Origin: Ceratodon purpureus
Taxonomy: Eukaryota > Streptophyta > Bryopsida > Pseudoditrichales > Ditrichaceae
Direction: 5' to 3'
DNA: 64,000 nt
NCBI GenBank assembly: GCA_014871385.1
Contig: CM026426.1
Coordinates: forward strand, 88,534,886-88,598,885
Numbering within the stretch: position 1 is the first letter of the stretch; every line of letters starts with the position of its first letter. The position numbers and the translations under genes were made by a program. The notes below the pieces were generated by a model. It did no database searches and had not been told where the DNA came from. It saw nothing but the letters and a program-made list of their open reading frames with translations. Below are positions 5,129 through 48,500 of this stretch, in pieces.

Positions 5129-5331
5129 TTGAATGAGGTCACCATCCGAGCCCTGGATTGTGACCTTCGATCAAGACTTGTACTTCACGAAAGAGGCTAA
5201 TCCATCCTTAATTAGCTGTGGACTTGTTTCCGGCACATCTTCACTCGAATGCGCCATCTGTGGCCAAAGCTGGCTCTCCTTGCAGCTTCGTGTGACAGGA
5301 TCTCCGTAGGTAGGCAAGGGATCCTCCCATT

Positions 5332-5361
5332 ATATGCAAAATGGGGTCTCCAAAAGGGCCC
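5332..5361. repeat. Motif shared with 37.8 kb (inverted)
   Basis: The bases GCAAAATGGGGTCTCCAAAA followed by GGGCCC recur in inverse orientation near 37,825-37,850 with one base of difference in the final G/C run. In both places one frame reads CKMGSPKGPL, similar in style to the start of BED-type domains in plant transposases. Similarity does not extend far on either side. Confidence 0.45.
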
Positions 5362-5429
5362 CTAAGCCTGCCCAAGTTAGGTGAACCCCCTGCCCAAAAG
5401 CCCGTCTGTTGCTGGCAGCGGATGCCAGA

Positions 5430-5446
5430 ATTCACTACAAGGGAAA
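5430..5446 (+). repeat. Left terminal repeat and target duplication of CACTA element 1
   Basis: ATT (5430-5432) is the target duplication and CACTACAAGGGAAA (5433-5446) the terminal inverted repeat. It pairs with the right end at 21315-21328. Confidence 0.92.
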
Positions 5447-5466
5447 CCCCATTACAGCAAGAGAAA

Positions 5467-5555
5467 ATCAAGAGAAGCCTCTTCGTATCAAGAGGATGAG
5501 GCGATATGGGGTCACCCGGATGAACATCAAGAGATAGAGAAATTATATCAAGAGA
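5467..5555 (+). repeat. Subterminal ATCAAGAGA repeats
   Basis: Four copies of ATCAAGAGR lie at 5467-5475, 5487-5495, 5526-5534 and 5547-5555, all direct, just inside the left end. The right end holds one near-match in inverse orientation (TCTCTTGAA near 21,285). Short subterminal repeats bound by TNPA-type proteins are typical of CACTA ends. That these are the binding sites is inference. Confidence 0.55.
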
Positions 5556-5559
5556 AACA

Positions 5560-6440
5560 TCTTGCCGGTACAGGAGTTCCTTTATCCGTGGACTGCGAGG
5601 TGTCCGACGTGGCTAGCAGGCGTGACAGTGTCAGAGCAATGTTTTATTCGTAGATTCTAGGTTCCTAGATTTAGAAATTCTTTTCGAGGATCATCAGCAT
5701 ACATGTTCACGTGTTCGGGATGTTGAAGTATGTACATATCGCAAGCAATACAGTATCCTAAAAAATAGATCTGCTTCAGCAAGACCGAGGTAATACCCTG
5801 TTTTTTAGAATAGGGTTTCCGAAAGTGTGTTTCGGGAATTCTCAATTCACGTACTCCTAATGGAAGTCATTATTCTGTACAAACTGACGGAACCATCAAG
5901 AAAGAGCTATGGACGTAGTACGAAGAACCACATCCGTGGGCATTTCAGCACAAATGATACAAACAGTCAGGTACAATTAAGGTGCTGCCGGTATTCATAT
6001 GAATTACAGTAGGAAATTAGAAACATATTGTTAACGATATTCCATACCTCATTGCTCATCTGCAACGGTTTCGGAAATATTCAACATCCATAAAGAGACA
6101 AGTCCTCCATTCTAATGAACCAGTACCACTGGTCCACAAAAAGGATGTACTATATAGCACATCCCTTGTACTTAGCAGCCTACACATCCGGAAAAACCAC
6201 AAAAATCTATATTGTCCTCTGATAGCACACTGAACTCTCACAACTGCCGACAGTTCATGCGTGTGTAATACAGTCCCGTCTAGACTCACTCATTTCGGAG
6301 TTCTGCACACGAACACATGCACAACGGCCATCAGTGACAAAGATGAAGCTAATAGTCAAAGGTCAGTATAACGTGGACAATGACGAGGATTCCGTGCTAT
6401 GCTAAGCAAATAGCGTATGTAAGAAGAACGAACCTTGCTT
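5560..6440. other. CACTA interior, left arm, no clear gene
   Basis: Nothing here is firmly coding. A minus-strand piece at 6056-6289 could be a downstream exon of the F-box-like gene, because a plausible acceptor (gtgtgcag) lies on the minus strand near 6,300. Its frame is not supported by any motif. Confidence 0.3.
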
Positions 6441-6442
6441 AC

Positions 6443-6979
6443 GCGCGGGCAGACGGAGCAACCCAAATGTCGAAGCGTGGGGAGAGCTTTTGCCCCTCGA
6501 ACGTCGGGATTGGAGAGTTCCCAGATCCGGAGAGCCGGTCTCGGAGGTGACTCAACTCTGAGTTGGTGAGGGCGGACAGGGGCTCCTCACGAAACCTTCG
6601 GTCGGAGAAAGGAATCCCCATGTTCCAGGACGTGTTGAAAATGCTCCAACTCCAGTTAAAACGCTGAGTCTCGAATTCCTCCTTCGATACCCAATTCGCT
6701 CCCTCCAACTGCGAATAATCCCACCTCGCCAGGCGGATGGTCGCATACTCTGGGCTGGCATCCACAATTGCCTTCCAGGACTTGCAAACCGCCCGAGCGC
6801 GGTCAACGTCAGCGATTGTAACGAGGGGAGAAGTAGTCCAGGAGTGGGTTGAGAAAACAGCCTCCCATGGGTCCGCACCGTTCGCCAACTCGGAGAGCAG
6901 CCTCTGCAGAACGCCGTGAGTGGCGATGAGTTCGTAATCCATACTGATCAGATGATACGTCAACGTCGACGACCAGTCC
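6443..6979 (-). CDS. F-box-like protein exon carried inside the CACTA element
   Basis: An open minus-strand exon is bounded by a possible acceptor (ctcag before 6979) and a donor (GTAAGC, 6437-6442). The central motif DVDRARAVCKSWKAIVDASP followed by EYATIRLARWDY resembles the second half of an F-box (the R-x-VCKSW-x2-IV pattern). F-box proteins bind Skp1 and select substrates for SCF ubiquitin ligases. The first half of the box is not obvious, and downstream exons are not resolved. It is not part of the standard CACTA gene set, sits between TNP2 and the left terminus, and reads the same direction as TNP2. I infer captured host sequence or an element-specific accessory gene. The exon itself is well supported, the function only moderately. 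Confidence 0.45.
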
Positions 6980-7056
6980 CTGAGGTGAAGAAAGTGATGT
7001 GAAAAAATGCTAACAAGTGTTTCAGAAAGACCGTAAAGAGCAAGCAAACGTAGCAC

Positions 7057-8896
7057 ACAAGAGAAAACTGAGCCACCAGGAGATATATGTTGGGGTCTTG
7101 AACATAAGCTTAGCGCACTGACATTATGATAGTCGTACCTAAACTTTGCCTAGTTTCTAGCTACAGTACCATGCAATAGAGGACATGATTGCAATGATTA
7201 ATTTCTAACACTTAGAAGTCACTTACCTGCATGTGTGAGGTCTCTTCTTAGGATCAATAATTAGTGGGAAGATGTAATTCATGAATGAGCATCTCACTTC
7301 CTCATCATTCGGATTGAGTGAATGGATTAACCCACGTATATTGCCCTATGCCTGTGTCGATAGATCAGCCTCCATTAACCTATAGAACTGTTTCCGAGGT
7401 AGGCCAGTTCCGCAGAGAGAAATTAGTACCTCCTGCTCTGTTAATGCTAATTCAGCTTTAACAAACGGCAGTCCTCTGGGATGTTGCATAATTTCCCTAT
7501 GATATGTCGGGGTACTCGTCGGAAAAAGAAAATGTACACTTCAAGGCAGACGCATAGCATTGAAAAACAGGATTTCTTACATCCATCACCACGTGAAAAG
7601 GATTCCGATCAGTTCTCCTGTCTAAGACATGTACCAGTAATTTGATCTTGTTCCACAAAGGCCAAAGTCGTACAAATCTATGAAACTAAAAATAAAATTC
7701 ATCATTATAAACAAGATCTAAACATATGGTGCCCCATAAGGCCGGGCCCGTTCAATTTAGTACCACATGAAAGCAAATCTTACACAAGTGCGGGTGCATT
7801 TAATTTACGCAAGAAGAAGTACTTACTTCAATCATCTGTGTCCGTGGGAAGCCTGTCTTAATGGTTGATACCCTTGCTGTACCTAGTCCAAAACAATTTC
7901 CACTCCATTGCCGTATCAAATAAGTTGATTTCCTAAATTGCAATCGTACTCTGCATTCGGAAACAATTCAAGTTCTGATGGGAGTCCTCACTGCTACAAC
8001 AGAACGCAATTGCGCGACATCTGTTTAGATAATCTGTTAATTCAAACAGTTTAAATTATCAGCGGTCTTGCAGCCACATTTCATAAGATTACGAACATAC
8101 AGGATTTGCTGAATGACTGTCCACAGCCACTATACTGGAACGAGAAAACTATTGGAAACAATCGAAACTTAAAAATAAGAGAAACTTATCTTCGGTGTCA
8201 TCGATTTAAACATCCTTCTGTACCGTATCTGCAATACATGATTTGCTTTCGACAAGACATCTGCACTGATAGTACCGATCCGAATTACAATATATATAAT
8301 ACTTGTGAAATAAAAATGTTCTGATAGTTCATGTACAATGTAGGATTTCATCGTTAAAAAATATTAAACTCATGAATGACATTACAAATGCCGCCTCCTT
8401 TGACGATTTCTACTATCCACCGGACCGTTATAAGGGTGCCAATGTTCTTCCGAGTCGTAAGACCAAAAAATTAGTATACTGAAGATGACCAGTAAATGAA
8501 AACAATTTTAAAAAATTTAACTATTAAAAAGTATGAGTACATTTCACTATTCTAATACCCCGACTCAGAAAACTGATTTTAAATTCAGTAATCCTTATCC
8601 TTTTATACGCTACCACCTTCGTAAAATATGATCAACTGCCTGCTGCATTGGAAAAAGCAAGTACATATTAAAATACATTTAGTCCAGAAAGATAAAAGAG
8701 CAGTCACCGAATGGGAAATTAGAGAACAGACGACAAGAAATTGGTAATTGATGATCACTGTGTTCTACTGTCTCTAAAGTATAATGTATCCTAGGATGCA
8801 ACAAATAAGTTTACGATAACAGTTTTAACAATAGAGGATCTGCGGGAGAATGAGTTCATACCGATGGATTTTTACGCATGGCCGTCATTGTGTTCA
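7057..8896. other. CACTA interior without recognisable gene
   Basis: This is moderately AT-rich sequence between the F-box-like exon and the 3' end of TNP2. Short open frames occur on both strands but none has motifs, and splice-site pairs do not build a convincing gene. It presumably contains the TNP2 3' untranslated region and spacer. Confidence 0.4.
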
Positions 8897-11800
8897 TCAA
8901 TCAGACTCCGAAGACTCTCCAACAGCCGTGTCGAAGACCGTCTCGGGCTCTGCCTCCAGATTTTCAAAGAGGTTTTCCGCTCTTATCTCCCTACCTCCCT
9001 CTGCTTGGGTAGGAACATCTTCATTAATGTTATCGGGTATCCTTAGACCTTCATAATCTTCGTCCCTGCCTACTTGGAATAACAACCCCTCTTCCCTGTC
9101 GGCAACAGAAGCTTCAACTCTACGTCCTCTCGGTTCAGTGCGAATGACAACCCGCCATCCAGGAGCGTCAGAGCACTCGGAATAGAACACTTGTTGAACG
9201 TGTGAAGGTAAAGCAAATGAGTCCTCACCGAATTCAATCATTCTGTTAAAGTTCGCAATAGTAAATCCCCATTTGTCTTTTTTCACAGTAGCAGTCGTTC
9301 CCCGATAATTCGCTTTGACCCATGAGGCAACCAAGACAACCTGAGTGAAAACACCATAGTCCAACTCTATGATTTCATCGAGTGTACCAACGTATTCCAC
9401 TGGAGCCGTGACGATGTTTCTATCTCCTACACCAGACCTACATTCCCTGATGAATGTACCTGCAATGCCCGAGTCAGCTGTCTTCAAGCCCTCCTCTGCA
9501 CTTCGCACACGTAGATGGTAACCATATGAGTACATGCTGCGGTATTTATCTGCCACCAGTGAAGGAAATTTCGATGTGGCTTCCACCATTTCATCAATAT
9601 ATGTACCGGAATCAATTTGTGATTGGACTCTATCACGAAGCCACTCCGGAAATGGCTGCATTTCAGACAGATCAGATGGAAAGTTAGGAGCTCTCGACCC
9701 AGCACGAGCGAAATGTCTTGACCTCCATCGCTGCCTCGCCAGTGTCCTCTCCTTTACGGCGTCGGCATATTCTCTGGGAAAAAAATTAAAATAAAAAAAT
9801 TACTTCACAATACTCTTATCAGTCCACTTGCAATCCATTTGGACAACCACAAAGATTTGCAAACTCGTATCAGCAGGGAACCTAGCTTTTCAAATCAGTC
9901 ATAGGGTAGTACATGAGAAACTCTTTGAAGTAATGACTTTATACAGTGTTGTTCGACACAAACAAAGCGACGTACATCGGTTACAATTGACAAGGACAGC
10001 CAGCAGTTATTTGCTTACAGTCGGTACGGCTCAACAACGTCCGCATTCTCCAAAACAAATGAATGCATTTGTCGGCGCAGCAGGAGGTCAAGAACACGCC
10101 GTTTTGGGCGACCTTCTAAGACAACGTCGTTGAGGATTGGGTCTTCTTCAGAGTCCCAGACTCTTCTAAAGGACCCTGCATCTTCAGCAACAAACTCCCC
10201 CACGAAACCGCAAGCTTCCTCAACCTCGTACCCCTTCGCAATACATCCCTCAGGCTTCGCTTGGTTCCTTACAAATCCCTTCAGAGTCTTAAAGTACCTT
10301 TCATAGGGGTACATCCACCTCACGTGAACAGGGCCGCATAAGAAAAGCTCTTCAACTAAGTGTATTGTCAAGTGAACCATGACATCAAAAAAGGCCGGGT
10401 GGAACTCTTTCTCGAGTAAGCACAGTGTTTCTGCGCACTCTTCGAAGAGAACCTCACGTGTATCTACATCGACTGATTTTGAACAAAGTTTGCGAAATAT
10501 CCTACTCAAACGAACAACTGCTGCGGTTGTCCTAGGATCCCCTATATTCCTAAGACAGAGAGGAAGTATCTCTTGTAACAAAACATGATAGTCATGCGAT
10601 TTGAGGCCTGTCAACTTACCTTTACTGATTTTCGAGTACAAGGAGCTACAGTAATGGCGCGGCATTTTAAGAGACTTCAAAATCTTCAAGAACTGTTCTC
10701 GGTCAGCCTTTGACAAGACATATTTCGCATTAGGCATGTACGCTCTTGTACCATCATCCCCCAGACGCCTGAGCCACAGATGCGGTCTAATGTTTTTGGA
10801 TTGCAAGTCCATCCGGACCTTTGCAGTATCTTTCTCTCCGAACAGAGTTCTGAGAAGATTTTCCGCTATATTTTTTTCTGTGTGCATGACATCCACCGTA
10901 TGTCTCACTGGCAGATCCTGCAAAAGTAAATACACGAGAAAATGAAGTTAGTGAAACGAACACATTCACTCCGAACACAAGGATTCTAAAGTCCTAACAT
11001 GAATTATAAAGGAAAGTCTTGATGAATTTCGAAGAGTTCATATTATTAGGTAATAGATGTCATACTCACGGCAGAAGTCGCTTCCACTGTTCATAGTTTC
11101 ATTGAATGCGGTGTACTTTAAAATACAGTAAATGATATCCTGAAGTCAAATAATTTACATGCTGCATGTAACTACGCGCATGCACAATCCTTCAACTATG
11201 ACTCGACGTATCCAGCAGGATATATCCAGGACATTCCATGACAAAAAGACATGGATATAAACAACCAGTTCATGGATTCCAAGACTGACGCGAAGTGTTA
11301 CTCGTCCTCATCCACTTACTGTTACATACCACAATGGTCCGTAAAAAAACAGAAAAAAAGAAAAAGGTTCAATTACAACGTCACGTTCACAGATGGAAAC
11401 GACCTCGTCGACTTACAGATTTAACAGTGACAGACACTAGCTGTAGAGTAAGAAACATAATCACACACAACCGAAGGTCTAGAAATGAAATATATTCCAC
11501 TTAGTTCAGAATACATTACCAAAAAACGTCAACATTCCATATTGTGACTGCCATTATAAACAGGGTTAGTCATCGTCCAAGTTCGAGAAATATACCCCCT
11601 GAAATGACAGACCAAAAGATTCAAATTTTTTTGGGTTCCTTCAACAATACTAACAGTCCTTCTAATTAATCTATAACCAAGCCACATCTAATATCTATGT
11701 TAAAAATTCATTACCTAATACGGGCGTGTCAATTTCTCAAGCACAAACACTGACATATCTCATAATCATGTAACGAATCACAGGTTTTGACAGGTGGACA

Positions 11801-13560
11801 TACTACCTTCCAATATGGGAGGGCATACAGAATGCTTGCTCGTTTGACACCGTGCTGCCTCACTGGGTCGCCAACAGAGTCTTCAGTACCTCCGTTTCGA
11901 AGCCATTCAGATCTGCCTCGTCCCTCTGTTAAAATTTGTGATCCAGATCGGCGTTGTGGAGGGGGTCTGAGCTCCGTCTCTCCATTAAATAACGTCCTCG
12001 AACGACGGAACCTGTGATTGGGTGGAAGAAACCGTCGATGGCCCAGGTAAACCATCTTACACAGGTACCTTGAATGCTCAGCTTCTGTTTCTGCCCCACA
12101 TACGGGGCAAGCCAAATAGCCTTTCACGACTTGCCCGGACACCAGTCCTAACGCTGGGAAGTCACTAACAGTCCACATTAGCATGGCTTTTAAAATGAAA
12201 TTCCTTTCACCAATGGGTTTGGACATATTCATCGCCGGGACGCCCTGCCAAAGTCTAAGTAAATCTACCACTAACGGCCTCAAGTAGATGTCGAACGTTT
12301 CCGAAGTTGGTGCACGTGGACCAGGGATTAGCAAGGATAAATTCAGAAAAAACTTTTTGGTCGCCAGCCAACCAGGTAAGTTGTATACGGCGACTAAAAC
12401 GATCCAAGTGGAGTGTCTCGAATTCTGATGGCTATGGGGACATACACCGTCCGCTACCAAGGCAAGTCTCAAATGTGTTGAGAGGTTGGCAAATTCAGGG
12501 TACATTCGGGTGATTTCCCGCCACTGGTAACTGTGCGCAACGGAGGTCATGCTCTTCCCATCGAATACTGAACTCGCATGATACTCCAGAAGAGAAGCTA
12601 ACTTAGGGCATCTGTAAATGCGAATAAGCTTCGGTACTAATGGAAAGTACCTTGTAACTGCTGCAGGCACCGTTGTTGACCCCGAAATGTATCGCGAACG
12701 CTGACACGTTGGGCAGTTCTGTAATTCTCCGTTCTCTGGTCCTTCGTATAGCACATGTCCTTCTGGACAACTGTGAATCCGCTGATGTTGAAGCCCCATC
12801 TTTCGAATCAGGTTTTTCAATTCGTACGCTGTTCTAGGTAGTATGTTTGTCTTCGGTAACAAGCTTCCAGCCAAATAAGTGAGTAAGGCAGATATAAAAG
12901 CATCAGAAACGCCATACACTGATGCAAGGCTCATTAAAACGATTCCACATTGGATTCTATTTTCATGACACCCTGGGAAAACAGGATCTGTTGACTCTCG
13001 AATTAGATTTTCGTAGTCTGCTTCGTCTCCCTCTTCAACCACCATTTCATCCCACGCTTCGAAGTTATGAGCATCGCCCGCAGCTTCTCTATGTAGACTG
13101 TCTGCCCTACCAAAGGCATTATACATCATCTGTTGGTAATCGACTCCTTCGACTCTCGGCCAAGCATACCCAGGAGATTCACTTCTCCCTCGCTCCCTGT
13201 GATAGAATTCTTCACCGTCGTCGGTTTGGAGCACAGGTCCACGTAAATTGCGGCCATCTACAGTCTGCAGAAGATCAAGTCTGGCGCGTTAAATGAATAC
13301 TCATGAGGCAGTTCAGTTAAATAATGTATGGGTGAAAGATACAGTAAGTTTGGAATTAAAAGGGACTCAATGAAGTTTGGATTTGTTCAGCCCATGAGCA
13401 GCGACAATCATGAGATAAAGGTCATAGCAATGTACGAACCAGAATGGGGTGTGAAAGGTACGGGTCCCGCCCATACAATCTGTGATGCCTCCCAATTGTC
13501 ACTGGCTTCCTTATCCGACCTCCCCGACATCTCGCACATGCACATGGGTACTCTACCAAT
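8897..13560 (-). CDS. TNP2 transposase of CACTA element 1 (Transposase_21, DUF4218, DUF4216)
   Basis: TNP2 is the catalytic CACTA transposase. I read at least four minus-strand exons: about 13,440-13,560 (zinc motif EYPCACARC, as in the N-terminal transposase-associated domain); 13,264 to 11,807 (Transposase_21 core with HLRLALVADGV, LNLSLLIPGPRAP and YLACPVCGAE); 10,917 to 10,019 (DLPVRHTVDVMHTEKN, then a DUF4218-like region with VHVRWMYPYERY); 9,774 to 8,897 (DUF4216-like, IIELDYGVF and HVQQVFYSECSD), ending in TGA. Joining exons 2 and 3 gives ALPYWK-DLPVRHTVDVMH, which matches the expected order in plant TNP2. The three large exons contain no stops, so the gene could be functional. The true first exon and start codon are not resolved. 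Confidence 0.88.
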
Positions 13561-15034
13561 CCTAAACGGGTGGATATGGATCGCTCAATATGGTAAGCTG
13601 GTACCAACCGGCGTCTCCTCATTTCTGACTAGACTGTGCGCCTCCCGTAACTGATCACATTCACTTAAATCTCCCTGCACATAGATACAGTATTCGGAGA
13701 CATTAATGTGCATTGTCATTCATGCAGTATGGTTCAAACAGAACCGAATCACCCACCTCCTGTTGGCCATGCACAGGTCCGTCATCCTAATGTACATCAT
13801 GGGGCGGCATCGCATGCACTATACGTTCAGTTGAGTGTACTTCGCTAAATCATAATAAAGAAGACAAAGACAGTGGAGTTCTGAGTACATTTTTCTGTCA
13901 CGGACGTAGTCGTGTAGCACGAACTAATAGAAGTCGTTACAGGTTTAGGTAAGCATACCGAATCCAATAATTTCCTACGGCGCATCGCCTGGGATTCATA
14001 CGGTAAACATTGATTCCACCCCAATGTAGTGTATAAATTTCTGCAGAACTACCTTCTCTATTCTATAAATCTCAGGTAGAAGGTGGTTTCACTCTGCAGA
14101 ATTCATTTAACGACAATGTTATGAACTTGTAGTACATTTCAAATTCATGACACAATGTCCATGTAGTTGACCTAACCCCGAGGTTATACTAATACAGAAG
14201 TCCAAGAGACCGAGACAACCAAGAACAGCGTTTGCGAATGGATACTCCTACTATGCACACTCAACCGCAAACATCACACTCAAACATGATTTTCTGTAAT
14301 GAAAGAGATGGCTGTATGAAGACTGACCTAGCTTGTTCCAGCGGTGGTACCGGGGACATAGTTTACACTCCTCCTGAAGAGCGCCGTCGAAGTTCAAAAC
14401 TTAGACAATACACTTGTTTCACGAATTCCAACTATACTCCTGGAGGCCGTACATTATAAAGTAAATCTTCGCCTCCGAAATGATTTCAATATCTACGGAT
14501 TCATTAGGGAGTATTACTTTCCGTTATATGCGAAGGCAACTGTTAGTTCCACACACTGTATTCGGATAAGTTTACGGCCACTAGCCCATACAACTGTTTT
14601 CTACTTTTACCGGATTATCCTGATCAGCCGTTGATGTTCTAATCCGCAAAATTTGTATCACCTCTTACACGTGCAGGAACAGTATTGTTTCATCTCTCTA
14701 CCAGTACATCTGTTCGATAGAGGTAGAAAATAACGTACTAACGGGGTTTTTAATCTCAGGTACAGCCTATCTACTGCTTGACACCTGTAATCAATCTGCG
14801 AGCATGAACATACAGGTAAGATTTTGAAGCAATTCTCTCATGTTATTAATTAACACTTTGAAAGTACAGTGCTCGTTTTTATAGCTTCAGGATTTTGTTG
14901 AGACTTGTCCTGACCTGGTAAACGCCGATACTCTGCTACACGTATTTTAGCTGAACTCATTCTTCGGAGAATGAGGGAACAAGTGGATTGTCAAAGAAAG
15001 ACCAATATAGAATGTAACTAAAGTCGTACATTCT
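13561..15034. other. CACTA interior spacer
   Basis: No reading frame with recognisable motifs. It probably includes the TNP2 5' region, and the 3' side of the BRCT-like gene begins at 15,035. Confidence 0.4.
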
Positions 15035-16469
15035 TCACTGGATGGCCTGGTACCCCGCCGCAGGTAGAACCTTCTGTTGCTTCAGGCAGTCTTCCAGCCA
15101 TTCCTGGTAGACGACGTTGATTTTCACTCCCGCTGGGTTCAGCATTTCAGAGAACCTCAGCATATCCTCTTCGGCTTGACCTCCTAAGCTGAACGTTTGT
15201 CCACACTGTATATGTTAATCACTTCTCCTATAAGCTGGGAAAACATGATGTATTCGGGTTTTGCTTCGACAGAATGTAATGGTCTTTGGAATAGGAAGAG
15301 GTCTAACCTGCGGAGAATGTTTTTTGCGGGGATATGTTGTCCTTCTCGGTGAAATACAATCATGTGGGTGACGCGGTCGAAGATGTTCTGAGCCTGTGTC
15401 GCTCCTACTAACTCCGCGGAAAGGAGTAGCCTACGTAAAGTTAGAGTTGCGATGGTCTGAGAATCTGGATTACTGCAAGACAGAGAATGGTATAACCCTA
15501 ACGTCATAAAATCCGACATGGAGAAACAGAATTATACTGAAATATATCTAACAGCAACAACTACTCACGGAAAACGATGCAAAAGTTGAAATCAAAGAAA
15601 ACCCAACTCACATAGAATGAATTGGGCGGTTTAACAATATGCGGACACCAGTAAACCAATTGATACGCAGATGCTCTTCTTCCACGGCTTTCTCGAGTTC
15701 ATCCAGTTCTTCTAGCAATTCTAAACAACCCCTGTGGAGGCGCTCCCATCTGCTAGGACTAGAAATCTGTACTTTACGTCGCTTCCTCTTACGCCTCTCA
15801 GGTATAGCTGATTGAAAGGACTCGGTGACACATTCCTCTGCCTGACTGACCCTATCGCCCTCTATTTCTGCCATTCTCAATGTAAAAGTACTCTCCCTCT
15901 CCAATGGTGCTCAGAGACAGACTTCTGCGGAGACTGAAATATGAAGGAGTATTACATATGTAAGCCCGGGAAGTTCCGCTGATCTCACTTCACGTTTGTT
16001 CACAACGGTAAATGGCGGCCTATACGTAGCGAAAAGATCGTCATTCCCAGGAAAAGTAATGGCTACATGTAGTTCACAGTAATTTAATTCTTCAATCACT
16101 CCCCCTGAATGACACGAATGCAGCACTTACTAAGTTCTCGCATAGATCATGTGATGCATGTTGGCTAGGGTTCATGAGAATCCGTCATCGAGTGGACGAG
16201 CATTTAATAAGTGGGTCTTAACTGCAGTTCACCAACATTTCATGGCACAATTATCGCCTGTAGAGACGCGTCATGACGTTCGTCCTCATCCTCTCTATGC
16301 TTTCTGGTTGTGGAAGCAGGCAGTACCTTTCCTGGTTACTCTGTATGCAGCCGCCCAGGAGAAGTTCCTCTGACGGCGCAACATACGTAGGTAATGTATC
16401 GAAGTTCTCCCCTCTTTCGCTTGGTTCCGGCGTTGGCTCATTCTTTTTTGAGCTATTTGGCGTTGACAC
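15035..16469 (-). CDS. Predicted cargo gene with basic, coiled-coil and BRCT-like segments
   Basis: Minus-strand coding pieces line up as one candidate gene: 16,469-16,251 (MSTPNSSKKNEPTPEPSERG), 16,126-15,608 (FATYRPPFTVVNKREVRSAE; basic PERRKRKRRKVQI; then an acidic helix LELLEELDELEKAVEEEHLR), 15,519-15,240 (NIFDRVTHMIVFHREGQHIP) and a last piece to TGA at 15,035-15,037 (INVVYQEWLEDCLKQQKVLP). RVTHMIV followed by W-L-x-D-C-L-x3-K-x-LP is the pattern of a BRCT fold, including the conserved tryptophan. BRCT domains bind phosphoproteins in DNA repair; one resemblance is the C-terminus of DNA ligase IV. Splice junctions between pieces are uncertain, and one TGA at 15,911-15,913 sits in the second piece. 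It is not a standard CACTA gene. Confidence 0.4.
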
Positions 16470-17079
16470 AAGCCCTTGTTGGCAGTAACTAACTATCCCG
16501 CTGCTTGCAAGGGTTTCTGTAGTGTTTGAGGGGTACTCTAAGCATTCGACCCGGTATCACTGAATATGCTGAAGTCACTACCTGCTTATGTTACTAGGTT
16601 TATCTTCATGACCATGACGTAGTTGTTGAAGCACATGTATGTATTTTAGATCAGTTCGGCTATCTCTATTCCTGTGTATTACTATATCATCGACCAGGAG
16701 AGGCCTATGTTCTGTGTACCGTTGATGCGTTCTAATAGAGGGCGGTGACTAATTTGATATTTCCCTGCAGAGAATAGAGCGCGGAGAACCCAAGCATCTC
16801 TCAGCAGTTGGGTACAAGACTCGACAATCGCAAAGTATGACTACTCACCTTGTCTTAGGTTTCCATTTTTCCGTCAGGCTATTAATTTTTTACATCATTC
16901 TAAAGGTAGAACAGATTGTTTAATGGAGCATTAGGTTCTTAAGAGAAGCTGTATAGGACTTCACTCGCCATCTTCAGATTCTTCCACCGGACCATTTGCA
17001 TATTGTATGTGAATACAGTTTTCCGATCGTTCAATTGTTATCACAGGCCTCTGCAGGAATATCGGAGTAAAGGAGCACG
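16470..17079. other. Divergent promoter region between minus- and plus-strand CACTA genes
   Basis: This interval lies between the starts of the BRCT-like gene (minus) and the TNPA-like gene (plus). It holds no coding signal and is the likely location of both promoters. I saw no convincing TATA element to annotate. Confidence 0.3.
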
Positions 17080-20000
17080 ATGCCACCGCGTGCAACCACA
17101 AAGGTGAAGAGGGGACCGGAGTTGTGGAATCCAAAAAAAACAAATACAGTCCCCGACGATGTCTTCGAGGACGACGACTGGGTTATGAGAATTTCAGCCG
17201 GACCTCGACCCAAGTTTCCCCCGGGACCTGATGCTGCTAATGCCGTGGTAGAGGAGTTCTTCAACATTCCCCCAGCCAAGTTAGCGTCTACTTCAAGAGC
17301 CCCTTCGACACCAGTGGCTGGCTTATCTCAGACAAACCTGTCAGGCGGTCCATGTAAGATATCGTTGTTTTTAATTCAATATGTAACCAGTATTCACCTG
17401 TACGTGAACTGACGTTTCATTTCTGTTCTCCTAAACTCTTGGTTGGAATAATTAGTAGGTTTGCTTTAATTTTTCCTAATTCGCAGTAATGAAGAGTAAT
17501 TGTCATAAATTGCGGTGATTTTTCAGCTCCCGGAAGAAACGAAGAGACTCAACCATTTGTGGCGTCGGACACACCTGGAAATACACCTACTGATCACGAT
17601 CAGAATGGGGGAAACGATGAACAGCATATGAGAAATTTTTCTCACCCATCGGATTTGGAACCCGTAGTTCAGGATGTTGATAAGTGCAGGTTCCCGGAGA
17701 GGACGTATAATCAAGTGCGTTCGAGCAGCGATGCTGATGGCTACAGACGACATAATTATGACGGGAGAGACCGATCCCCAATGCATAACAGGTCTCGGCG
17801 TCGTAGGAGGTACACTTCGACAGACTCGGAGGAGGTAAGTATTACTAAAATTCGCTATATTTAGGGCCTTCCTCTTTTAACTCAGTAATACGAGTAGCCG
17901 CTGTAACTGGATTATGTATAGGTCATTTACGTGCACGTTTTGAGTGCCTAGAAATCTGGCGAAGAGTCGTTATGAGTTTGGGGTTAATCAAAATATAATT
18001 ACGAAGGGAACATCACGAGGGATTTAATTTCATTTTTAATCCTTACAGTGTTCATGGTTACTGGTAATTTCATACGTATGACAGAGCGAACGAAGAAGGA
18101 GGAGAAGTCATCGTAACAGAAGACATCGCCGTCAGAGGTCGTCTTCACGTTCGAATTCAAGATCTTCATCGGAATGGGACCGAGAGCGTAGAAACAGGAA
18201 GCACTATAAGGGAAATCGTGGCAGCGCTGATCCCGTGCGCAATACCGGAAGTGGACCGTCACGTCGGTCATCGGAATCTAATGGTCACAGTGAAGAAGAT
18301 ACATTCGATAGGCACAGATCGCCTGCATCTCACCAGAATCAAAGCCATCAGTTTTCCACACCTTCGAAACGGAACTTCGAATTGAGACTCCCCTCACTTA
18401 CGTCTCCCAATGATCAGCTCATATCTGAACAACGCCGAAACCAGCAGGAGAGGAGCGGTTTTGGTCCGGGGACATGTTCCCTTCACCCATTCAGTCTAAA
18501 AAAGGAAAGCATTGACAGAAAGATCAGACGCGAAAAACAGAGGATTCGAGACGACACAGGTACTCGGAGAGTGGAGGCAGGTAAGAAGCGATATTATGTA
18601 CACGTTAATCAAGAAGGTAGACCATACGGTTATGGCATAGGAGATTTCAATGAGATCCTCGGAAAGGTAGTACGAGGCCTCGATCCATCGTATATCGACA
18701 TACGCCACCAACCTTTCCATCTAATGGAGACTCTGATTCAGAGGCTGAACGACGACATAGATTTTTGAGACAATGTGAATTCCAGCTGGTTGCGTGCACG
18801 TATAGGATCAGCTCTCAGTTCATACCGGCATGAGCTGATCAAGGCAATCGAGGCACATGAAGACCGTCCGCAGTGGGTAAGTCAGGAGATTTGGTCAAGA
18901 CTAGTCACAATGTCTGGCACAGAAAAATTCAAAGCTAAATCCGAACAGATGCGTTACGCGAACGCTTGCAGGAAGACCAAGGGACGTACCGGCCCAATAG
19001 GTGTTGCAGGTGTAACAGAGAAACTTAGGGAGCGGCTTGGAAGAACGCCAGACCCTGAGGAGGTCCAGGAAGAGGTCACCCGAGACAAGAAGGCGGACAG
19101 GAGGTGTCGAGCACGTAGAGTGGGAACTGTACCTGATGCAGGTAAAGAAGGCCAGTCTCATACTTCCGAAGAGAGGCATTCCCAGAATCCATGTGGAGGT
19201 ACCGCTGCAGCCGACGAAAATTATGAGAGAGATACCTCTGAAGAGCAGACTACGATTCTCAGTGAACGCAGTCAATCGGGAAGCTTGAAGGAACCGTTTC
19301 ATCTGTCCACTGACGTCGACGTGATTTATGCCAGGAAACATCCACTCGGAAAAGTGTTATTGAAGCAGATCCAAGAACTCAGGGGTATTCAGGAGTGCGA
19401 CACTCCGGAGGTGAAGGTGATAGTCGAAGGTCTCATGCGACAGATAAGAAATATGCGCGAAAGCTCAGAGTCCGGTAGAGGTGTTCAGAAGGAAGTCTCA
19501 ATGGAAGTTCAAGAAAGTGGGCCTGTACACATCACCAAAGAAGACATACAGACGCTACCTGAATGTGAAGAGAACGTACTAGTATCTCATCACAATTCCC
19601 GGGTGAGCGAACTGACTAAAGAATTTCCGTTAATACCGTATTGCCGACCTCCGAATGGAATCGGAGTCCTCATGTGTTTTGAATTTCAGCCGCATACGTA
19701 GTGACCGTGTTGAAGGGGCATGTGAATCTCAATTTTAAGAGATTATGATGATAGAGTTTTTGTTTTGCTTTTTCAGATTTTAAAAGAGCCTTCTCTGTCC
19801 GAGCTTCCAACGTCGGAGCCACCGAATGAAGGCATTCAGACAGCATGTGCGCCCGTTATGACGACGAGGAAGAGTGGACGAATCTCAAGAAAAAAAAAAA
19901 ATGGTCAGTATCATCCGCTAGCCTCATAATTACCGCACTCTCTGAAAAAACAAAGTTAAGATTCATTTTCATAAACTCAGGATGTTATTGCATATTGCCT

Positions 20001-20394
20001 ATGTTTATACCCTGCTTAGGACAGTTGTCATGTCTTACACAATAAATTCAAAAGGTGAATGAGATTGAAACTGTTTCCGTCGCAGAATATGATGATCATG
20101 GATTCGCCTTTGTATTTTATATGTGTCGGTGCTATTAATTTTGAAGTTCCACATTTCGCATGTGGGCTGTTGTAGTATAAGTGTCATCGACATGAGGTCA
20201 GCATTACTAAGTTTAAACGTTGGAAACGTGATTACTTTTGTTGTGTTATTCCACAGACATTTGACAGTCGAGGAAGTCTTCACCAGAATAATTACGGGAA
20301 TGTCCAACAGAACTGTTTGTGCTGGATATTCACACACTTGCATGAGGGGTATTTCGGAGGAGACAAAGTTTCGAAGTCAAACAACAACAATTAG
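17080..20394 (+). CDS. TNPA-like (Transposase_24) gene of CACTA element 1, one in-frame TGA
   Basis: TNPA-type proteins bind CACTA subterminal repeats and help pair the ends. Exons read: 17,080-17,355 (MPPRATTKVKRGPELWNP), 17,527-17,834, 18,085 to about 19,680, 19,777 to about 19,901 (KSGRISRKKKKW) and possibly 20,257-20,394 (ending FGGDKVSKSNNNN, TAG). The second and third exons join in phase to give an Arg/Ser-rich stretch (SERRRRRSHRNRRHRRQRSS). The Transposase_24 core is IWSRLVTMSGTEKFKAKSEQ through GRTPDPEEVQEEVTRDK at about 18,880-19,090. A TGA at 18,766-18,768 interrupts the otherwise continuous third exon directly before the core; CGA to TGA would explain it, or an unrecognised intron removes it. 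The last exon assignments are the least certain. Confidence 0.75.
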
Positions 20395-21314
20395 AAGACC
20401 CTATGGTATAATCTGAGGTAAGATAGGTCGGACAGACCCAATGTCTGTGATCCCAGATACACGTCGTCCTTCATATTCAGCAAACCGGCAGTGGAGGAGG
20501 CTTAGCTTACTGACGCAGTGTGAAATTGAACGCTGAGTCTCGCATTCACGGCCATTTCATGAATAGAATAGTAATCGACCGGTAACTGTGGACCTTCTAA
20601 ATTTTAACAGCCACGTAGGGAATGAGGGACAGTATATGTTACTACAGCTGTAGTTATTGGACGAATATTGTACCCCCTGTATTTAATTAAAAAACTATTA
20701 TTCGTTACGGAATCTGCTGCAGTGTAGGGCATAGCCCCATCCGTGACGTCATGTCGGTATATTCCGAAAAATCATGAACAACCTACGTGATAATTACACG
20801 TGTACGGTCATCAATGAAAATTACTTTGGATTAACGACCAATAACGATATTTAAATTTCAGTGAATGTATTACGAAAATTCTGCCAAAATAAAATTCAGA
20901 CGTGACACATGGGAACACTTAATTCGACCAACGATTCGAGTATAATTGGCATAAGAAACCAACACGTGTATGGCGCTCAGTTGTCCAGTATCGAAGATTT
21001 GGCCGACAGAATTGAACACGGGGAAATGTATCAGTTCCGTAGATCCGAACTTCTGTGAAAATCACTTTATTCCTAGATCCAGGAACGACACATCTGCACA
21101 CGCTCGGTGCCACCTATTTGTCCCCGTCATCCTTCGACCAGCCATGAGGAGTCTTACGTGGCGTCCTAGTCAGCGGTAAAATCCGACGTGGAAACCCTCA
21201 ACTCCGAGAACAAGGCAGCAAGAGATAACTGTCCAGACTGTCCGGAATCAAGATGTCCGCACCAAGACCGACTAGTAACAGAATTCTCTTGAATTTCTCT
21301 ACATACACAGAGCA
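20395..21314. other. CACTA element 1 right arm
   Basis: Non-coding right subterminal region. Unlike CACTA element 2, it shows no dense GACT-AGTC palindromes, so the two elements must use different end-recognition motifs. Confidence 0.45.
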
Positions 21315-21331
21315 TTTTCCTTGTAGTGATT
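21315..21331 (-). repeat. Right terminal repeat and target duplication of CACTA element 1
   Basis: The inverse strand reads CACTACAAGGAAAA (21,328 to 21,315). ATT at 21,329-21,331 duplicates the 3 bases before the left end. Confidence 0.92.
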
Positions 21332-21942
21332 GCTGCCCGCAGAGTTAAGATGGCATCTTTATGGTATTGAGATGGGGTTGCGTGGCGGGGTCGGTGTGCC
21401 TAGTGGCGCCAAGGTGGCTCCGGTAGTTGGTGAACCACAACTCATTGCATTTACTGACCTTGAAGCTCGAGTCGTAGGAGAGATGACGGGAGATTGGTGC
21501 CAACGGTTTCAAGATTCGAAGTTTGGTGCCACAACGGGAAGAAGCCATGAAGCTTGGCCGCGACTAGGTTGGTCTCTCCACCTACAAATGGGGTGAAGCG
21601 AATTTGGGTGCGTAAAATTTGAGTGTTGCAGAACCAAAGACCCCATTCTAAGGTGAAATTCAAGGATTTCGAGGGAAGGAGTGACAACTAAAATTGTGAG
21701 AGGGCTTTTATAGATACGCGCAGGCAGCAATTTCAAATTTGAGCAGGAAGCATTAGAAGGGTTATCTTGTAACTCCTACTGCGATGGACTGAAATTATAT
21801 TGTGAGTGCCGTTTTCTCTATGATAAGTTCTGGTCGTAATCCACAGTACTAGGGTAGATGATATTCTTCATTTCATTTTGCAATTTCCTTGAGTGGCTAT
21901 GGTATAGGGTTTGGTTGTTGACGACTCTAGAGTTTTGGGTTC
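21332..21942. other. Flank of CACTA element 1, no gene seen
   Basis: Intermediate-GC sequence on the right of the insertion. Short overlapping open frames on both strands carry no motifs. It may be the promoter side of the decayed coding block that follows. Confidence 0.3.
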
Positions 21943-45518: not shown

Positions 45519-48500
45519 ATGTCACTATCGTACGCAGCGCTGGAGAGATTGAGTCAGAAGAAGTTTTTCTCAAAGCCAGCTCCGCAACCGGCGACGATCT
45601 CCACTATCAACATCGGCGTCGAGGACTTCCTGTCGCCTCATTCATCGGAGGACGCCGGGCACTACAGCAGCTCGCAGCGCCCGCCGCGACGGACTGGCGG
45701 CTCCGTGCACTTCAACATGCCAGCGGCGTCTAAAGTATCCCCGCGTCACACAGTCCAAAACAACAAGACGATCCCTGCTTCGAAAGCTGGTAATGGGAAT
45801 GGACCAGCGCGTGACTCCAGTGCGGTTCTCTCCTCGATTGCGAGCAGGGGGAAGAAGTCTGGAATGGGAGGCGCTCTTCTTAAGCCTCTCCAGCGTGATA
45901 TCACCGCCTCTGAAGCCCAATCTCGACAGGTCTGTTGTTGCCCACTTTGAATCTTATTATTTTATTTATTTATTTATTTTACTTATTTTTGGAGCAAATG
46001 AACGAAACTTCATTGCAATTTGAATCCATATTCCTGTGCTTCGCAGTTTTGTCTTTTAAGTGGGTTCGTTCGTGCGAGTGTGCCCTTCTATGCACATACA
46101 ACCCAAGATGATCACATTACATGCTTTGTACCAGGCTGTCGTTGACATCGGTTTAATCTACCGAGGTTCTGCAATGTACCGAAATTTTACAATATGAAGA
46201 ATCCAGCTATGGAATGTGCAATTGCAGTCAGCTTGACTGTGGTTGGATAGTGTTAAAATGTTGATGTGCAGGCGACACCGATTCGTGGGAAGAAACAAAG
46301 GCCAAGCACAGCAGAGGCTAGTGGCGAGAAACCATCTGAGGGAATGGGAAACGTTTTCCAGCGGCATAGTTCCTGTGAACTTCGAGACCACGCTGAGGAA
46401 GACCTTCAATCTCCTCTGTCTCAGAAGATATCCTTTTCACGCAGTAGCCCAGACCCGCTGCAGATTCCGTCGCGGCAGGAGATAAACAATGAGTTTGGGA
46501 TGAGCATGCGGGATATGAGTGAGAGTCTGAGCAAGATAGAGGAGTTGATTTTCCCCTCTAAAGCAGGACAAGAAGTCGTCATGCGGGAGAACATGGCATT
46601 TGAGGCTTCTCCAATTCTATCTTCAGGGTTTCTCGAGCTGGAAGACGGTTCCATGAAGCCATTGTACGTGTCTCCATTTGCAAGGTCACAGTCTAGGAAC
46701 AGCGATGGCGATCTCGAGAGGGCGGAGGATGCTATTGTTAATGGCGTCCGGAAGCAGCGGCGGGCTCAAAGCGCTGTGAAGTGGAGGAGAAGAAATGATA
46801 GATCCATGCCATGCCATGAGAAGTCCCCGAGCTGCGACAACGAGACGACATTCCGGGAGAAGGTCAACCGGAGGTGGACATTGGTGCGGTCGAGCGCCGA
46901 GTTTTTGAGCAGCTCCCTGCCATTGTACGGTGATCGCAGCGACAGCGGAAGCGGTGCCTCCACCGAAGAGGAAGGTGACGTGTCATCCACTCGCAGGAGG
47001 TGGCCTAAGATCCCGCAATGTTTTTCATACTCTACTATTCGCGGTAACTCTGCATCCAAATCAGAATCATCGTTTTTCGGGACCGAAAGCCCCACGACCC
47101 AAGTGGAAACTGAACCAGATGCTGTCGCGGAGCACAGTGATACATCAGGTAGGCGTATATGCAGATCCATGATCGAAATGGGGAAATCACGGCGGTCGAG
47201 ACTGGAGGACAGTAACCTTGCATGTGACAGGACAACAACTGGCCATGAGTCGGTCGCAAACGCAGAATCGGGAGAAGAAAATAATTTGAAACACCACGAC
47301 GTGTTGAACGAGAAGCAGAATGAAGGATTTGAAGAAGAAAATGAAGTGCTTTGCAAAGATGGATACACAGGAATTGACGGTGGCAATGGAGGATGTATGG
47401 CTCATGAACCGGCAAAAAAGCGAGATGGAAGCTCCAGCGAGCATAGTACTCCAAGGAAGGACACTATGGTGATTGTTCTTCCCACATCAAGCGTCTCTAA
47501 CGGTCAAAGCACCAAGCAGACAATCACACAGGCGGAGCAAAGAGCAACGCAGCAACACAGCGAGTCGATGCAGGTGTTGTTCCCAACCAAGGAAGCGCAA
47601 GAGCAGCGAAAGGATCAACTCTCCAACTCGGTTCGCATTAGTGCAGACGCGTCACAACAAGAGATGAATCACCATGAGGAGGATCAAGATGGTGCTGAAG
47701 TGAGGAGCCTCTCTGACGTGGATGTTTCCAGATCCTCTCCGCATACGAAGAACCAGATCCATTGCCAAAGCTCGGAGGAAGTGTTGACACACAAGCACTT
47801 GTCGTTTTATTTTGAAGACTCGTCCACTATCTCTGAGAGCGCAGATGAGAAGCACGTCGACGTCGACTCGAGTGGCGCTCAGCATCAAGATGATTTGGAG
47901 TTGGAGCAGCCGGTGTCCCGGGACGTCTTTGATGTTCGATGCGAGAAGAACAGGTCTAGCTCTGGCTTTTTCAATGTGTGTGCGCAAAAGAGCACAGATG
48001 CGCAAGACAAGGCTCCCATTGCGACCATACAACAGTCTAACACTGAGGAGAAGTACATCCATGCTTCGTTGTCTACCGAGAAACTTTGTAGTATTTTATC
48101 ATATCTCGGTCAAGTAGAGCAGTCCAATTTGCAGGAGAACTTGGGTATACCGACAGAGAAAGGAACTCCACTAGGAGCATGTTTTTATAGTCTGAGTGGA
48201 AATGGATCGCCAAGGGCGGTCTTGGAGCATGCAGAGGATGCTGTTTCTCTCACGAGCTCCTCACAGACAGCACACTCTGGGACATTCCATCTGTCTGGAG
48301 ATGTTGGTGGAGATTCCAGAGTCGCCGACTGCAATCCACCTGCAATTGCTGCGACTACGGTCTTTGATGGTGTTCGCAAGAAGGTCCAGGAGCTGAAGCA
48401 AAAGATCGCTGAACAGGAGGCAAAAATCGCCCAACTGCAAGCAGAGAATAAGAAGTTGGTTCGAGAAAGGGAAGAGCATATGCTTTTGTAAGTTCTGTCG

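Follow-up and report, generated by a model that had tools for sequence, protein, structure and literature searches.

An F-box-like and a BRCT-like gene are probable resident genes of a CACTA transposon clade in the moss Ceratodon purpureus

The window analysed here, a stretch of 64,000 nucleotides from the genome of the moss Ceratodon purpureus (C6:88534886-88598885), carries a CACTA (En/Spm) transposon at 5433-21328. This element, called copy A below, probably represents a CACTA clade with a working set of four genes: TNPD, TNPA, a small F-box-like gene and a small BRCT-like gene. The two extra genes were regarded as cargo in a first-pass annotation of the window. Because both are under purifying selection, have a shared divergence history and recur in other CACTA lineages with order and orientation unchanged, we consider with high confidence that they are resident genes of the clade and not captured cargo. 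C6 (110.5 Mb in a genome of 362.5 Mb) is presumably the V sex chromosome of a male plant, which is taken as a lead and not as a result. In a review, the U and V chromosomes of Ceratodon are given as more than 100 Mb each and the genome as 360 Mb (PMC8000587).

The outer ends of the element read CACTACAAGG... (left) and ...CCTTGTAGTG (right), and the right terminal inverted repeat (21315-21328) is the inverse of the left one, CACTACAAGGGAAA, at 13 of 14 bases. Genome searches with the element ends gave at least 10 matches for one end and at least 40 for the other. Both ends were read in eight copies (A to G and I; Table 1), all of which are flanked by a perfect 3-bp duplication with a different triplet in each (ATT, TAG, CAT, AGG, TAC, TGG, ACT and TGC). 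The flanks of copy A were joined at one ATT and used as a query; the junction was spanned in 38 of the 40 matches listed from 1001 first-look candidates, the remaining two being the window's own flanks. Since uninterrupted copies of the flanking repeat span the junction, the ATT is a true duplication and these copies represent the empty site. A chance match of three bases at the ends was ruled out by the eight duplications together with the related empty sites. The insertion site itself (5241-5432 plus 21332-21479) is a high-copy repeat, with 1001 first-look candidates.

The motif CAAGAGA, chosen by eye, was counted in three copies: their outer 600 bases (1800 bases in total) hold 14 occurrences and their interiors 9. 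This is an enrichment of about 34-fold at the ends, where it is the first-ranked 7-base word. The first 300 bases of copy A are 82-83% identical to those of copies B and E. On the minus strand, Pfam matched Transposase_21 (TNP2; E 3e-63) and DUF4218 (E 4e-34), both above cut-off, and DUF4216 (E 5e-6), slightly under its cut-off. Transposase_24 was matched above cut-off on the plus strand (E 6e-7). No Pfam match was obtained for the probable first transposase exon, 13425-13622. Termini, 3-bp duplication, TNP2-type transposase, TNPA/ORF2-type gene and sub-terminal motif are thus all present, and the first annotation was right about a complete CACTA element with both termini and an ATT duplication, about the TNP2 and TNPA-like genes, and about a non-standard gene content in which two extra genes resemble F-box and BRCT proteins, here by sub-threshold Pfam matches. 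Rfam matched nothing in the window.

Coding exons were marked by substitution counts per codon position without a gene model, copies B and E being tiled from fetched loci. In the comparison of copies A, B and E, all windows with strong three-base substitution periodicity fall inside the core or extra genes. Identity of A to B and E rises up to 90% over genes and falls to about 50% between them. The reading frames 16251-16556 (minus strand) and 9795-10306 (plus strand) have no coding signal of their own and were taken as chance. The ratio of nonsynonymous to synonymous divergence (dN/dS) was estimated by the Nei-Gojobori method with our own script for the pairs A-B, A-E and B-E, in that order. 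It was 0.065, 0.091 and 0.076 for the F-box-like gene; 0.082, 0.071 and 0.064 for TNP2; 0.046, 0.051 and 0.038 for DUF4218; and 0.097, 0.120 and 0.080 for DUF4216. The BRCT-like exons gave 0.117-0.262 and the TNPA pieces 0.149-0.357. The non-coding control 15933-16530, when treated as coding, gave 0.63-0.89. Thus, all four genes are under purifying selection. At synonymous sites, the F-box-like gene has diverged about as much (0.62-0.75) as TNP2 (0.68-0.81), which would be expected of genes that travelled together.

Both extra genes are present at matching places in all eight copies with both ends read. This was the comparison proposed with the first annotation, and nested insertion as the origin of the extra genes was ruled out by it. 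Distances between the extra proteins agree over the eight copies (Mantel r 0.957; none of 5000 permutations as high). Copies F and G share 7880 of 7909 aligned bases (99.6%) over three pieces, namely both ends and the BRCT-like region, and their F-box-like and TNP2 frames have no stops. Such near-identity, together with unrelated flanks and different duplications, indicates from the sequences compared that the four genes moved recently as one unit. In copy A, the TNP2, F-box-like and BRCT-like genes are open.

The BRCT-like gene (15035-15874, minus strand) has three exons, 193 amino acids and its own ATG and stop. Its exons were followed at 17 other loci. All three are open in 12 of these, with introns at corresponding places; copy C and the locus at C6:86.0 have all three exons but with damage, and the loci at C6:27.99 and C6:27.57 end within exon 2. 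In copy H, exon 3 lies about 9 kb away from exon 2. The F-box-like gene follows the transposase gene, with which it shares the strand. In an alignment of nine rows, its protein has no insertions or deletions in the seven full-length rows, with identity to the first row down to 59%. Residues of a VCK-W pattern are conserved in this protein.

The positions of these genes were compared across the genome, using lists of the best-scoring matches from larger candidate sets for the extra genes and TNP2. A single F-box-like query gave 888 candidates, the best 150 of which comprise 46 loci at 48-100% identity and 104 at 41-48%. Of the 46 closest loci, 28 have same-strand BRCT-like exons no more than 40 kb upstream, the distance being 7.8-11.6 kb in 24 of these; such exons were found within 40 kb in none of the 104 loci of the second group, among the matches listed. 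Of 30 loci scanned, 16 have a CACTA end at about 1 kb past the F-box-like gene. The TNP2 ranking holds the best 91 loci of 2251 candidates, one of 92 rows having been dropped as the second piece of a locus. Of the first 27 loci (at least 65% identity), 26 have a BRCT-like gene within 15 kb upstream and 22 have an F-box-like gene within 20 kb downstream. For the next 64 (52-69%, with one short match at 76%), the corresponding counts among the matches listed are 8 and 0, and since these are lists of best matches, absence of the genes from lower-ranked loci may partly reflect divergence. The simplest history would be that the BRCT-like gene joined first and the F-box-like gene later, and that both stayed, with losses.

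Several observations weigh against a four-gene working set. The TNPA-like gene of copy A is interrupted by an in-frame stop (18766-18768) absent in copies B and E, so that copy A may depend on other copies, and an extra gene is damaged in three of the eight copies (B, C and D). No BRCT-like exon was found among the matches listed, within 40 kb on the same strand, at 18 of the 46 closest F-box-like loci. Conversely, with copy H counted twice, 42 of 70 BRCT-like loci lack an F-box-like gene within 40 kb among those listed, and at 14 of the 30 F-box-like loci scanned the 1.5 kb read contain no CACTA end. Twelve of these 14 fall into two sets of closely similar copies located on small contigs and towards the ends of some chromosomes. 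The extra genes are mostly unseen in distant CACTA loci, and thus they are not needed for CACTA movement generally. As to the proteins, neither a BRCT nor an F-box domain scored above the curated Pfam cut-off, leaving likeness only for the F-box. Hand-made consensus sequences did no better: that of the BRCT-like protein scored worse (BRCT_2, 0.18) and that of the F-box-like protein gave no F-box match. Profile searches of solved structures in PDB yielded chance matches only, with no BRCT or F-box chain among them. Single-sequence structure prediction of the F-box-like protein gave a pLDDT of 40.5 and no usable model.

These last results suit an explanation in which both extra proteins have element-specific roles in DNA binding or regulation and resemble F-box and BRCT proteins by accident, since every Pfam match is below cut-off and no solved structure was matched. 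In the BRCT-like region, however, BRCT families account for 18 of 19 member-family matches and for five Pfam models, the best at E 0.0017 (19 bits against a cut-off of 27.3). With the full-length proteins they account for 13 of 19 matches. The part of a BRCT model that is matched is its C-terminal end. The hallmark positions, which we take to be a G after helix 1, TH, and W-x3-C or S, are also present in the alignment of nine rows: G and TH are found in every row, W in eight rows and W-x3-C/S in seven. The likeness is thus BRCT-specific, with several models matched and the hallmarks in place. For the F-box-like protein, Pfam F-box-like was matched below threshold at E 0.0012 with the longer open reading frame of the window (19 bits against a cut-off of 24.3) and at E 0.018 with the 167-residue protein; the best value in the alignment was E 0.0082, and F-box families make up 9 of its 12 Pfam matches. 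Ten reversed sequences, five of the nine from each alignment, gave two unrelated single matches and no BRCT or F-box. NCBIfam gave nothing relevant. Clustering of matches on related models across many members, with none in the reversed sequences tested, makes accidental likeness unlikely, and the counter-evidence is stronger for BRCT than for F-box. We consider a BRCT fold of the second extra protein probable from these profiles and its BRCT identity likely; for the first, the chances of an F-box fold appear even and F-box identity is plausible.

Capture of host gene fragments as passengers, by Pack-CACTA or transduplication, is known for CACTA elements in plants (PMC13317346, PMC8978399), and both extra proteins resemble host domain families. 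The genes examined here have their own starts and stops, are open in several copies and are under purifying selection; introns correspond in distant loci, and both genes are common to other CACTA lineages. Pack-CACTA elements are characterized by lack of a transposase and an unselected host fragment, neither of which was found. Capture is therefore very improbable as the present state of the genes, although an ancient capture may have been their origin. Another explanation would make the two frames distal parts of transposase or TNPA transcripts and not separate genes, in line with the position of the F-box-like gene behind the transposase on the same strand and with the alternative mosaic transcripts possible from CACTA genes (PMC2613891). 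It is improbable: the ATG of the F-box-like gene is conserved, and in copy J a stop stands only two codons ahead of it; the 1.9 kb between this gene and the DUF4216 exon are 54-76% identical without codon periodicity; and the BRCT-like gene begins and ends with an ATG and a stop of its own. Resident genes of a four-gene CACTA clade thus remain the preferred reading.

In the standard account, CACTA elements have two open reading frames, for the transposase and for ORF2/TNPA (PMC4158355). The moss element is like canonical ones (En/Spm, Tam1) in its ends, 3-bp duplication, TNP2 with DUF4218 and DUF4216, Transposase_24 TNPA-like gene and sub-terminal repeats, and differs from them in two further conserved genes. 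Its size, offered in the first-pass annotation as a sign of extra genes, is a poor indicator, as a 20.5-kb soybean CACTA is described with one large gene for both core functions (PMC2613891). CACTA elements of grapevine, rice and Chenopodium are reported to have gained ULP1/Peptidase_C48 (PMC2528002, PMC8978399), and the moss element resembles them in a domain gained beyond the core functions in several lineages. In contrast to that ULP1-type protease, the genes gained here are F-box-like and BRCT-like and were tested for co-inheritance and selection; Peptidase_C48 was not matched in 10 scanned frames, the spliced BRCT-like protein and two further TNPA frames. Pack-CACTA elements, as described in PMC13317346, share the CACTA ends and carry gene fragments, unlike the moss element with its transposase genes and conserved extra genes. 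F-box and BRCT are absent from the main text of that gene-capture review of 2026, and the literature searched yielded no CACTA element described with F-box-like or BRCT-like genes. Extra conserved domains in CACTA are already known, and the novelty lies in which genes were gained. Soybean CACTA elements that carry gene fragments reportedly have CACTA ends surrounding captured sequence.

As inferred from En/Spm, TNPA and TNPD would bind the CAAGAGA repeats and termini and then cut and paste the element; their roles in En/Spm are outlined in PMC2613891. The BRCT-like protein, with a basic stretch, a helix and one BRCT-like domain, could be nuclear and connect the transposition complex to host DNA-end repair or checkpoint, a role which is possible but tentative. 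The F-box-like protein could serve as an adaptor of the host SCF ubiquitin ligase, removing a host silencing factor or tuning an element protein, and here the ubiquitin role is somewhat doubtful. VANDAL elements, which are Mutator-like elements (MULEs), have the anti-silencing gene VANC, which shows that plant DNA transposons do carry such genes (PMC10398659). They provide a model for a possible role of the F-box-like gene by analogy only, with no sequence relation claimed. Less probable again is the combined proposal of a moss CACTA clade with its own ubiquitin-ligase adaptor and a BRCT contact to repair or checkpoint, the F-box-like gene occurring also in a second, unrelated repeat family; the gene would then be a shared transposon module, comparable to ULP1 common to CACTA and MULE elements. 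Retention of two further genes under selection suggests that spread of the clade needs more than a transposase and a helper, and the host processes most likely to be involved are DNA-end repair and either protein turnover or silencing. Homologous recombination makes mosses easy to edit, and single genes could thus be deleted from an active copy to measure what each contributes.

Table 1. Features of the CACTA element (window coordinates) and its copies (genome coordinates)
Feature	Position	Strand	Basis
Left ATT target-site duplication	5430-5432	.	end reading; related empty sites
Left terminal inverted repeat CACTACAAGGGAAA	5433-5446	+	end sequence, copy comparison
Left sub-terminal region, four CAAGAGA motifs	5433-5560	.	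motif count, copy alignment
Extra gene 1, single-exon F-box-like protein, 167 amino acids and stop	6439-6942	-	periodicity, alignment, dN/dS
Transposase gene (TNPD type), DUF4216 part including stop	8897-9775	-	Pfam, codon periodicity, dN/dS
Transposase gene, DUF4218 part, exon ends approximate	10015-10920	-	Pfam, codon periodicity, dN/dS
Transposase gene, TNP2 (Transposase_21) part, open in copy A	11885-13285	-	Pfam, periodicity, dN/dS
Probable first transposase exon, ends approximate	13425-13622	-	reading-frame conservation (copies A, B, E)
Extra gene 2, exon 3: BRCT-like domain, W-x3-C, stop	15035-15188	-	periodicity, dN/dS
Extra gene 2, exon 2: BRCT-like domain with the invariant G and TH	15308-15472	-	periodicity, dN/dS
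Extra gene 2, exon 1: basic and helix-like stretches, BRCT-like domain start	15612-15874	-	periodicity, dN/dS
Conserved non-coding stretch	15933-16530	.	identity 74-80%, codon periodicity absent
TNPA-like gene (SR-rich, Transposase_24), several exons, ends approximate	17071-19701	+	Pfam, periodicity, dN/dS
Right sub-terminal region, two CAAGAGA motifs, with right inverted repeat	21219-21328	.	motif count, ends
Right ATT target-site duplication	21329-21331	.	end reading; related empty sites
Copy A	window		both ends read
Copy B	C6:105.69-105.71 Mb		both ends read
Copy C	C6:78.15 Mb		both ends read
Copy D	C6:32.61 Mb		both ends read
Copy E	C2:5.75 Mb		both ends read
Copy F	C7:9.38 Mb		both ends read
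Copy G	C2:22.37 Mb		both ends read
Copy H	C6:105.98 Mb		right end only
Copy I	C6:89.67 Mb		both ends read
Copy J	C1:20.42 Mb		matches at both ends; outside duplication count

The conserved non-coding stretch 15933-16530 lies between the divergent BRCT-like and TNPA-like genes, reaches 87% identity in 16083-16233 and is perhaps their shared promoter region. Immediately upstream of the F-box-like gene, the non-coding segment 7083-7233 is about 86% identical between copies. The main length difference among copies A, B and E is at 14133-14733, where about 0.7 kb of copy A is missing in E and partly in B.

Well-conserved F-box-like open reading frames were also seen at C3:386666, C7:18897157, C7:18714996, C6:84224 and on small contigs (L040-L050, L052), several of them near the ends of chromosomes; at these loci there is no BRCT-like gene within 40 kb among the matches listed and no CACTA end in the 1.5 kb covered. 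The second F-box-like group (C1:28045605 and 103 further loci, L087:4022-4609 being an example) is at 41-48% identity, with no BRCT-like or TNP2 gene nearby among the matches listed. At 36 of its 104 members, a gene of about 500 amino acids with a cysteine-rich end (912 candidates) follows on the same strand within 6 kb. From this setting, the F-box-like family seems to live in two different repeat families. A tie of the second group to a transposase-like gene at C1:28.04 Mb was dropped, as one pair within 10 kb was found for 104 members and 110 listed loci. An open frame at L087:186-1301 (minus strand) without a Pfam match, presumably zinc-finger-like and transposase-like in look, belongs to a family of 2348 candidates, many of the listed ones being near 95% identical. 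The genome is rich in TNP2-type transposases, with 1940 PF02992 candidates, and most of the best 150 have no internal stop. Elsewhere in the window, at 46257-48491 (plus strand), an open frame of 744 amino acids has weak Pfam matches of coiled-coil type only.

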